From Buchnera aphidicola (Artemisaphis artemisicola) (GTDB taxonomy: Bacteria > Pseudomonadota > Gammaproteobacteria > Enterobacterales > Enterobacteriaceae): a stretch of DNA of 64,000 nt. A model generated the notes under the pieces. The model was not told the DNA's origin. It did not search any database and saw only the letters and a program-made list of their open reading frames with translations. A program made the translations under genes and the position numbers. The stretch spans positions 186,001 to 250,000 of the forward strand of contig NZ_CP034900.1 of NCBI RefSeq assembly GCF_005082365.1. The letters run 5' to 3'. This document shows positions 9,081 to 63,507 of the stretch, piece by piece. Numbering within the stretch: position 1 is the stretch's first letter; each line of letters opens with the position of its first letter.

Positions 9081-9134
9081 AATTTTATTTTTTATAGTTA
9101 TATATAATATACATTATTAATATATTAAAAAAAT

Positions 9135-9169
9135 AAAGCCAGCATAAAATATTTTTTTTTGCTGACTTT
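9135..9169 (-). terminator. hairpin terminator after the peroxiredoxin gene
   Basis: Nine-base arms (9135-9143 and 9161-9169) flank a 17-base loop. The single imperfect pair is G.U when read as minus-strand RNA but C.A on the plus strand, and the minus copy is followed by a T-rich stretch, so it best serves the minus-strand gene. It lies between two convergent genes. Confidence 0.6.
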
Positions 9170-9176
9170 AGATATT

Positions 9177-19382: not shown

Positions 19383-21833
19383 TTATGATAGTGTACGCAG
19401 TAAGTCGGAAAATACTCCAGACGCTGTAACATTATTTCCAGCACCATAACCTCTTAATACAAGAGGAATTGGTTGATAATAATTAGTATAAAACGCTAAT
19501 GCATTTTCACCGTTTTTTACTTTATATAATGGATCATTAACATTTACTTCTTCCATTTTTATAAAACATTTTCCATTTTTTTCTATTGTTGCAATAAATC
19601 TTAATACATTTCCTATACTACGTGCTTTGTTAATTCTTTTTAAAAAATCTGAATCTAGTTCTTTTAATTTTAAAAAAAACATGTCAATATTTTGATATTT
19701 TTTAAAAATTTCTGGTAATAAGGGTTCAATGGCGATATCTTTGAGTTCTATATGATATCCAGATTCACGTGCTAAAATAAGCAACTTTCTAGCTACATCT
19801 ATTCCGGATAAATCCTCAAAAGGATTTGGTTCAGTAAAACCCAGTTCTCTAGCTTCTTTAGTAGCTTCTGACAATAAAACGCCTTCTTCTAGTTTACCAA
19901 AAATAAAAGATAAAGAACCAGATAATATACCTTTAAAACGAATTAAGGTATCACCGGTTTTAAATAGATTTTGAAGGGTTTCTATAACTGGTAATCCAGC
20001 TCCAACATTAGTTTCGTAGAGAAATTTTTTATTTGTTTTAAAAACAGCATTTCTAATATTTTGATAGTAAGCCCATTCACTAGTATTAGCTTTTTTATTA
20101 GCAGCAACAACATGAAAATCATTGTGTAAAAAATTTATATATTGTTCTGCTAATACTTGATCAGATGTACAGTCAATAATTACTGCATTTGAAAAATTAT
20201 TATTTTTTATTATTTTATTTAGTATCTTTAAATTAAATTTTTCAGATGAATTTTGAAAATCATCCTTCCAATGAGATAAACTCATTTTATTTTTTATAAA
20301 AAGTATTTTTTTAGAATTGGCAATAGCAATGATTCTAATTTCTATATTTTGTTTGTTTAAAAATTGTTTTTGTTTTAATATTTGATTAATTAGCGCACTT
20401 CCGATACCGCCTGTTCCTATTAAAAAAACATGAATAATTTTTTTGTTAGAAAACAATACATTATGAACGTTTTGAACCGCTTGTAAAATATTTTCTTTTT
20501 TAATAACAAGTGAAATAGAATGTTTTGAAGAACCTTGTGCAATAGCAAGAACATTAATTTTTGATGTTCCTAAAGCATAAAAAATTTTTGATGCAATATT
20601 ATGTTTTATATAAATATCAGACCCAATCACCGATAAAATAGATAGATTATTCGTGATTTGAAAAGGATTTAATAATTTATCTTTTAACTCTAGTTGAAAC
20701 TCTTTATTTAATAGAGATACCATCATATGGTATTGATATTCTAGAATACAAAAATTAATTTTATTTTCTGCAGATGATTGAGTTATCAATAATATCTTAA
20801 TATCATGTCTTGATAGTATAGTAAATATACGTGAAATTATATTGTTTATATTTTTTATATAATATCCAGATATATTAAACATGATTATTTCATCAAGATG
20901 AGTAACACCTTTTAAAAAATTTTTTTCAGAATTATTTTTTTTGCATATTAATGTTCCAATTGATTCAATATCAGCTGCATTTTTAATAAAACATGGAATA
21001 TTAAATTGAGAAATAGGCTCTATAGTACGAGGATGTAAAACTTTAGCTCCAAAATGAGACAATTCCATTGCTTCTTCATATGTTAGTGATTTTAATAAAT
21101 AAGCATTCGGAACTTTTCTTGGATCACATGTAAAAACTCCGTCAACGTCGGTCCAAATTTCACAGCAATTTGCATTTAAACATGCTGCTAGAACTGCTGC
21201 AGAATAGTCAGATCCATTTCTCCCTAACACTACTAATTCTTTATCTTCATTTCCAGCAATAAAACCAGCCATTAAGATAATAGAATTTTTATTAAAATTT
21301 ATATTATTAATGCGTTTTTTAGATTTATATATATCAACAGTACAATCTAAATAATTATTTCCTATAGATACAAAATTTTCTACAGGATTAATAATAGTAA
21401 CATTATAATTTTTAGATTGTAAAATACTTTTCATTATGAAAACTGAAAGTATTTCTCCACGAGAAATTATGTTAGCACGAATATTATCTGGACATTGTTT
21501 TAATAATACAATTCCATGCACTATATTTTTTAAGTTATTAAATTCTTTTTTAATAATTTTTTCTATTTTTTGATAAGGAAAATTAGATTGTATATTAGAA
21601 AGATTATTTATTAATTCAATAAATATCGTTTCTGTAATATTTATGGTTTCTAAAATTTCATCATGCTTAATTTTTTTTTCTATAATTGTTACTAAATAAT
21701 TAGTAATATTTGCAGGAGCAGAAAGTACTGTTGCAACTTGATCAGTTTTCATGTTTTTTTCTATAATACTTGCTACATATAGAAACTTTTCTGCATTAGC
21801 TAATGAAGTTCCGCCAAATTTTAATAATTTCAT
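19383..21833 (-). CDS. thrA: bifunctional aspartokinase I / homoserine dehydrogenase I
   Basis: Catalyses the first and third steps from aspartate to threonine. The aspartokinase part (about residues 1-290) starts [15 protein letters not shown] and contains [17 protein letters not shown]-type regulatory segments occupy about 300-460. The NAD(P)-binding homoserine dehydrogenase part begins about residue 465 ([15 protein letters not shown]) and includes AANKKAN and [10 protein letters not shown]. Length 816 against 820 in E. coli, with no gap. Whether threonine feedback still works cannot be judged from sequence. A long leader with an attenuator-like hairpin precedes it. Confidence 0.98.
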
Positions 21834-21861
21834 ATTTTATAATTCCTTATATTTATGTCAT

Positions 21862-21902
21862 AAAAAAACCCGCTTTAAGTATTATTATGAGCGAGTTTTT
21901 TT
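21862..21902 (-). terminator. thr leader intrinsic terminator (attenuator-like)
   Basis: On the minus strand a 13-base stem (AAAAAAACTCGCT / AGCGGGTTTTTTT, one G.U pair) with a 15-base loop ends in seven T, just 29 bases before the thrA start codon. The position, the GCGGG core and the T run match the thr attenuator of E. coli. On the plus strand the same stem has a C.A mismatch, supporting minus-strand use. Confidence 0.8.
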
Positions 21903-21914
21903 GAAAAAAGAATC

Positions 21915-21965
21915 TTAGCCCACATCATGACTAGTTATAATAATTAGAATAGCTATTCTAGTGAA
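21915..21965 (-). pseudogene. thrL: eroded thr leader-peptide reading frame
   Basis: Minus-strand codons from 21965 read F T R I A I L I I I T S H D V G stop, ending GTG GGC TAA just before the attenuator hairpin. This resembles E. coli ThrL (KRIS start, Ile/Thr-rich middle, end GAG-stop at GCG GGC TGA). No ATG, GTG or TTG starts the frame at the expected place; the residue aligned to Met is a TTC codon. I infer a leader peptide gene that has lost its start, though chance similarity is possible in so short a stretch. Confidence 0.45.
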
Positions 21966-22357
21966 GAGGCTATAATAGACATTAATACTTTTTATAAATG
22001 TATAAATTACTTTAATAAATCATATTAAAAATTTAAATATAACTTTTAATGAAAAATATTTTTTATTAGAATATTTTAAAGTAATAATTTTATTGATTTT
22101 ATCATAAATTAGGTATATTTATTTTTATAAAAAATGATTATTATATTTTATAATAAAAAATTATTTTAAAATTTTTTATTGAATGAATTTTTATAACATA
22201 ATGATCATCATCAGTGCAATAGTCAAAAAAATAAATGTTTTTTTAATTATATGTTAAAAATGTATTTTTTTAACTATACTGTATATCTTTAATAAAGATT
22301 AATATATTTTAAAAAATTTTAATATCATTTTATTCACATAAAAATTTAAATCATATT
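21966..22357. other. thrA / hpt divergent intergenic region
   Basis: Besides the leader elements listed separately, this gap shows no gene. A perfect 16-base palindrome TAGAATAGCTATTCTA lies just inside the leader frame at 21945-21960. GTTAAAAA/TTTTTAAC arms occur at about 22253-22274, directly before a TATACT that could be the hpt -10. No ribosome site is evident before hpt. Confidence 0.4.
22198..22226 (-). promoter_or_regulatory. candidate thr operon promoter
   Basis: On the minus strand TTGACT (22221-22226) and CATTAT (22198-22203) are 17 bases apart. If used, the thrABC leader would be about 355 bases, much longer than in E. coli. Other boxes nearer the gene cannot be excluded in this A+T-rich gap. 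Confidence 0.4.
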
Positions 22358-22894
22358 ATGAAGCATGCTATTGAAGTTATTATTTCTGAAGAAGCACTCA
22401 ATATCCGTATTCGAGAATTAGGTCAAGAAATTACTCAAAAATATAAAAACAGTAAAAATAAAATGATATTAATTGCTCTATTACGTGGTTCTTTTATTTT
22501 TATAGCAGATTTATGTCGTAGAATTAATATTCAACATGAAGTAGATTTTATGACTACTTCTAGTTATGGACGTGGCATGATCTCTAGTGGAGATGTAAAA
22601 ATTATAAAAGATTTAGATGTAGATATTTATGATAAAAACGTTTTAATTGTAGAAGATATTATTGATTCAGGACAAACTTTAAGCAAAGTATTAGGTATAC
22701 TCAAATTAAGAAATCCAAAATCTTTGTCAATTTGTACTCTTTTAGATAAACCAGAATGTCGTGAAGTTAATATTAATGTTGATTTTATAGGATTTTCTAT
22801 TTATGAAAATTTTTTTATAGTAGGTTATGGTATCGATTATGCTCAATCTTATCGTTATTTACCATATATAGGAAAGGTAATCTTAAAAAAATAA
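22358..22894 (+). CDS. hpt: hypoxanthine phosphoribosyltransferase
   Basis: Salvages hypoxanthine (and to a lesser degree guanine) to IMP/GMP using PRPP. The PRPP-binding motif [14 protein letters not shown] and the early [12 protein letters not shown] loop are clear. Length 178 equals the E. coli protein. It converges with panC, with only six bases between the stop codons. With guaC in this window it points to a purine interconversion route that uses host-supplied bases. Confidence 0.96.
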
Positions 22895-63481: not shown

Positions 63482-63507
63482 CCGCCCGAAAAACGGGCGG
63501 TTTTTTT
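63482..63507 (+). terminator. intrinsic terminator after degP
   Basis: Perfect G+C-only seven-base stem CCGCCCG (63482-63488) / CGGGCGG (63494-63500), AAAAA loop, T7 tail (63501-63507). It is the clearest intrinsic terminator in the window. The T tail overlaps the dapD stop codon of the convergent gene. Confidence 0.93.

Follow-up and report, generated by a model that had tools for sequence, protein, structure and literature searches.

What form of control remains at the threonine operon of Buchnera, in which the leader peptides are described as lost (PMC3229713), is the question raised by the region upstream of thrA. The window, that is, the whole stretch of 64,000 nucleotides analysed, comes from a genome of 641 kb in two contigs. 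In it, thrB and thrC lie downstream of thrA, hpt is divergent and begins at 22358, and the thr leader occupies about 21834–21987 of the minus strand, where it reads TATTAATGTCTATTATAGCCTCTTCACTAGAATAGCTATTCTAATTATTATAACTAGTCATGATGTGGGCTAAGATTCTTTTTTCAAAAAAACTCGCTCATAATAATACTTAAAGCGGGTTTTTTTATGACATAAATATAAGGAATTATAAAATATG. We compared thrA-anchored upstream regions from 36 genomes of the genus (the window and 35 others). Clade A is that of the window and has 18 genomes, clade B includes L027, L028, L030, and L032, and clade C consists of nine genomes (L031, L035, L038–L044; support 99). The gene and its terminator are located as follows:

19383–21833, minus strand: thrA, aspartokinase I / homoserine dehydrogenase I, first gene of thrABC, with orthologues in 36 of the 36 genomes of the genus.
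21844–21848, minus strand: Shine–Dalgarno-like AAGGA of thrA, conserved in the alignment.
21862–21902, minus strand: intrinsic terminator 3:4, with the A-run at 21902–21896, the 5' arm CTCGCT at 21895–21890, the 3' arm AGCGGG at 21874–21869, and T7 at 21868–21862.

The GC stem of the 3:4 hairpin is lengthened by A/U pairs and closes a loop of 15 nt, and for this reason the 64 kb window was scanned for terminators with a longer loop than the default 8 nt. Three intrinsic terminators of similar quality were found near the 58 ORFs; two are ordinary terminators at gene ends (9134–9170, minus strand, and 63482–63500, plus strand), and only that of thrA occupies a 5' leader. The calculated energy of the leader fold is −26.1 kcal/mol (z = −2). 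The distance from the end of the terminator arm to the ATG of thrA is 35 nt in the window versus 34 nt in two enteric relatives, which bears out the initial annotation in placing a hairpin with T7 where the E. coli attenuator lies.

The terminator is recognisable in 25 of the 36 genomes, namely the 18 of clade A together with L027–L030, L032, L033, and L036; its GC stem is lost in the nine genomes of clade C and in L034 and L037. In all 25 terminator-bearing genomes the U-tract read in the thr direction is 5–8 nt long, whereas the opposite A-run, which would be the T-tract for the other direction, varies from 1 to 7 nt and is not kept; the terminator is therefore built to act on transcription towards thrA. 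Protection of hpt by a terminator active in both directions was considered and rejected, because the plus-strand T-tract is not kept and a G-U pair of the stem becomes C-A on that strand in the window.

Whether the terminator competes with other structures depends on three segments of the leader:

21966–21972, minus strand: region 1, TAGCCTC, in which AGCCU (21971–21967) can pair with GGGCU (21921–21917) and would then sequester region 2.
21917–21932, minus strand: region 2, AGTCATGATGTGGGCT, whose alternative partners are region 1 and region 3.
21878–21895, minus strand: region 3, CTCGC-T-CAT...ACT, that is, the terminator 5' arm plus the loop, the antiterminator partner of region 2 (p = 0.02 against shuffles in the window).

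The leader RNA has the sequences for the 1:2, 2:3, and 3:4 pairings of a classical attenuator, which exclude one another. Applied to 18 leaders, RNAalifold returned the antiterminator unprompted, pairing AGU-C-AUG-AU-GUGGG (21932–21919) with CYCGC-U-CAU-ACU. Over the ungapped segments of 2:3 in clade A, 96% of cells are paired, against 28–57% in slid controls, and six cells are changed on both sides, although these double changes represent few events on the tree and the counted cells are not independent events. They include a double change at the GUGGG/CCCGC position in L013, L014, and L017 and, separately, in L023, and the replacement of AGU/ACU by AAU/AUU in L023 and L025. The covariation score of 2:3 was matched by 1 of 500 shuffles. 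The complementarity of regions 2 and 3 also exceeds that of dinucleotide shuffles in the window and in most of clade A, with p values down to 0.002 (L026); the same holds, though the sequence differs, for L101 of another genus (p = 0.005). For 3:4 in clade A, 96.9% of cells are paired with two double-change cells; for 1:2 (AGCCU/GGGCU), 92.5% of cells are paired with zero double changes.

At the level of the alignment, these data show that 2:3 and 3:4 are kept by selection. Folding predictions give 2:3 a probability of at least 0.44 before region 4 is made in 17 of the 18 clade A genomes, and in the full leader 3:4 is predicted to be dominant throughout clade A except in L023. The initial annotation had spoken of a remnant with the terminator kept; the terminator is indeed there, but the description is understated, since the antiterminator is kept with compensatory changes and 1:2 can form.

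The antiterminator is weak in clade B (p 0.1–0.3), and four genomes of this clade, L027, L028, L030, and L032, retain the terminator with U6. They are candidates for constitutive termination, as judged from predicted pairing, and would form a natural contrast to clade A.

The relationship to the enteric system was also assessed with covariance models. The Rfam model Thr_leader (RF00506, model positions 1–118) matches 21859–21976 of the minus strand, directly upstream of thrA, at 20.4 bits, which is below the gathering threshold of 55 bits; the best score in the genus is 35.8. In three relatives (L052–L054), Thr_leader matches over its full length at the same site and on the same strand with 32–36 bits, ahead of all other models among 4227 families. 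No Rfam family reached its threshold for the thr leader in the window. The element agrees with the thr attenuator in place, spacing, strand, arm sequence, and available pairings, which supports homology between the two.

In the enteric attenuator, the leader codes for the peptide ThrL. The corresponding region in the window is as follows:

21915–21982, minus strand: dead thrL region, with ATG at 21982–21980, a 1-nt deletion, and then an open frame ending in LFTRIAILIIITSHDVG and a stop, without an in-frame start.

The Ile/Thr-rich frame ending GTG GGC TAA (21923–21915), to which the initial annotation had drawn attention, is present and has no start in the window. The codon TTC (21965–21963), which had been aligned with the ThrL start, is probably not the right choice: on the basis of leader length and similarity to the peptides of relatives, the ancestral start was most likely the codon at 21982–21980, six codons upstream of TTC. 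Live ThrL peptides of relatives, such as MSILFSHIIIIFTTTDTIAGSSAS (L099) and MRHYSHNITTMTIITIISGKGAG (L104), have 23–24 codons (MSIL..., MRHYS...), and the matching Buchnera frame, MSIYSLFTRIAILIIITSHDVG, has 22. The window has ATG at this site, but with one T missing from TCTATT-ATAGCC the frame is interrupted and runs into a TAG stop. Other genomes have ATG, ATA, ATT, ACA, AAA, or CTA there, with ATA the commonest. A complete ATG-started leader ORF, with start, frame, and stop after region 2, was found in none of the 36 genomes: the six genomes with an in-frame ATG are without the stop after region 2, and the genomes with that stop are without an in-frame ATG. The original proposal of a thr attenuator whose peptide start is gone is thus supported. 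As to conservation in related strains, the hairpin is conserved in the 25 genomes given above, but the Ile/Thr frame is kept as a sequence and not as an expressible frame. The thrA leader of L033 carries a TTG-started frame, LYPITEATVFIIITSHCVS, whose stop falls exactly after region 2; it is the only near-complete leader ORF among the genomes.

Changes by codon position number 16/7/11 in the leader versus 42/24/61 in thrA, that is, the leader has no third-codon bias. The absence of this bias and the drifting start, stop, and frame therefore indicate conservation at the RNA or DNA level and not of a peptide. This bears on the idea that translation of the leader persists from a non-canonical start (AUA, AUU) and that stalling at ATT ATT ATA ACT controls termination. 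In favour of this idea, the Ile-Ile-Ile-Thr codons hardly vary across clade A, Ile codons being frequent in AT-rich DNA in general, and an in-frame ATG occurs in the six genomes mentioned. Against it, the start codon varies, no Shine–Dalgarno sequence is visible, and stops are inconsistently placed, with frameshifts in the window and L021 and further stops in clade C. On the start, stop, frameshift, and codon-position evidence leader translation was rejected, and we regard control of this kind as improbable.

What is conserved is the nucleic acid itself. In clade A, positions 21918–21987 of the leader have 0.92–0.97 identity to the majority, equal to that of the thrA coding start; in the same 18 genomes the value for the spacer 22000–22170 is 0.50–0.65. 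The conserved part includes a long AU-rich stretch, ATTATTATAACTAG, and two further features:

21945–21960, minus strand: hairpin TAGAAT-AGCT-ATTCTA, 94% paired and kept even where the terminator has decayed.
21979–21987, minus strand: TATTAATGT, the first part of the conserved block and a candidate −10 element of the thr promoter.

That the element is merely decaying and no longer functions is the least probable explanation that we weighed: the loss of the terminator in clade C, L034, and L037 and the weak antiterminator of clade B are what decay would produce, but clade A combines compensatory changes with conservation equal to that of the thrA coding start.

Conservation could also reflect a DNA-level element, in which the block would hold an operator and the promoter of thr (e.g., TTCACT-N17-TATTAT), and the hairpin would have no role of its own. 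A promoter-like match lies at 21965–21937 and scores 9 of 12, but the promoter scan found such matches no commoner than in shuffles, and L022 as well as clades B and C do not keep the spacing of TTCACT-N17-TATTAT. Because of these breaks the promoter was rejected as the main reading. In addition, changes in the stem are G-U tolerant, as in RNA, and the co-variation of AGU/ACU implies that region 2 is transcribed. A purely DNA-level role is therefore very doubtful, more so than translation from a non-canonical start.

A second conserved block lies between hpt and thrA at 22178–22247 (minus-strand reading TTGACTATTGCACTGATGATGATCATTATGTTATAAAA), and its conservation across 18 genomes is 0.91–0.99. 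The block adjoins the thr leader in L020 and L022, where it includes a palindrome, ATAATGATCATTAT; it therefore moves independently of the leader and is possibly a promoter/operator of hpt or thr. Conserved intergenic spacers, some of them between divergent genes, have been described in Buchnera (PMC3164680), and the hpt–thrA spacer may be among them.

Taken together, these data lead us to regard it as fairly probable that the element derives from the thr attenuator, has outlived its peptide, and now acts untranslated, probably as a transcriptional throttle set at a fixed level. The conserved block opens with TATTAAT, which may be the −10 element, and the RNA would then start near region 1. 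If TATTAAT is the −10, the old start codon lies inside the promoter, and this would account for a codon that varies amid conserved surroundings. With no translating ribosome, the terminator would form by default, and part of transcription would end some 30 nt short of thrA. Read-through would be fixed by the way in which 1:2, 2:3, and 3:4 intrinsically balance one another; the sensing of Thr and Ile would thereby be lost, with the operon held at a set level and thrABC most likely constantly damped.

This model is weakest at the pairing 1:2 and the −10 element, and certain observations speak against it: a fixed throttle does not need the long AU-rich stretch or the 21945–21960 hairpin, the antiterminator is weak in clade B, and 1:2 is without double changes in clade A. 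Changes in the hairpin are mostly G-U changes that keep the pair, with one G-C to U-A change, and the hairpin is kept in clade C too. The persistence, in part, of the AU-rich stretch and the hairpin in this clade, where the terminator has decayed, suggests a further function.

The same terminator and antiterminator could, for example, answer another signal independently of the ribosome (a protein, a small RNA, a metabolite, or temperature), perhaps via the 21945–21960 hairpin. Such a switch would account for the retention of both 2:3 and 3:4, for 2:3 being the predicted fold before region 4 in most of clade A, and for a hairpin and AU-rich stretch conserved beyond the needs of the three pairings, the hairpin in clade C as well. 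On the other side, no ligand or partner is known, and the search for an aptamer-like fold in the leader found none, with sub-threshold Rfam matches only. We consider this switch unlikely, although it is the most credible of the alternatives. If true, a symbiont thought to be nearly unregulated would still control its thr operon by RNA folding.

It should be noted that in clade C (L031, L035, L038–L044) the 5' half of the leader is highly conserved though the GC terminator has decayed, with a local stem ACUC...GAGU around AGGAG; this half may have a function independent of termination.

The terminated leader, about 100–120 nt long, might instead be a trans-acting small RNA with the terminator as its 3' end. 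In favour of this, the RNA is structured, conserved, and closed by a canonical terminator, and conserved UTR and intergenic sRNAs have been reported in Buchnera (PMC6867890, PMC8557413). However, conservation tracks the attenuator pairings, including that of the loop with region 2, and the place before thrA is kept; we find a trans-acting role still less probable than a DNA-level element, though more probable than a mere relic.

RNA pairings conserved with compensatory change, in the absence of the peptide, contradict the strict view that Buchnera has no attenuation. For the operons with which a long-term symbiont provisions nutrients, it becomes testable whether a fixed throttle or a working switch governs them. 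The genomes also trace a path of decay, in which the RNA switch outlasts the peptide and some lineages then lose the terminator. Upstream of thrA in the related genera represented by L098, L101, and L102, there are a terminator and a complement of region 2, in different sequences and with no evident leader peptide; the peptide-less state may thus extend beyond the genus. Automated searches would miss the element, as the Rfam cut-off is not reached and RNAz is unusable on spacers above 75% A+T (PMC3164680). The papers found describe Buchnera without leaders or attenuation and none describes this thr element; in the literature searched, only PMC4122931 names both Buchnera and thrL.

Compared with the thr attenuator of E. 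coli and other enterics (thrL; RF00506; Gardner 1979), the element has the same site before thrA (35 versus 34 nt), the GCGGG arm, the potential for the alternative pairings 1:2, 2:3, and 3:4, and, in the window, the Ile/Thr codons and a stop just past region 2. It differs in having no expressible peptide, in the additional hairpin at 21945–21960, and in its score of 20.4 versus 55 bits. Of the features that define a ribosome-mediated attenuator, it has the terminator 3:4 with a U-tract before the first gene and the competing antiterminator 2:3; a leader ORF with start, ribosome site, frame, and stop was not found, and the element is therefore not a member of that class as defined.

In Serratia symbiotica, another aphid symbiont in which thr leader control is lost, thrL is eroded or displaced (PMC4122931). 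There the leader and peptide have been eroded or moved away from thrABC, whereas in Buchnera the RNA part is kept and constrained. Riboswitches with intrinsic terminators and protein-dependent attenuators likewise choose between terminator and antiterminator without a leader peptide, but they have a ligand or binding domain, and none is known for the Buchnera element.

In start-codon mutants of enteric attenuators, termination prevails and the response is lost. One of them, the E. coli mutant trpL29, reportedly carries an AUG-to-AUA change of the leader start. The Buchnera element resembles these mutants in that the RNA elements are intact, leader translation is lost, and constitutive termination is to be expected; they are laboratory variants of a single strain, whereas the state in Buchnera is natural and widespread in the genus.
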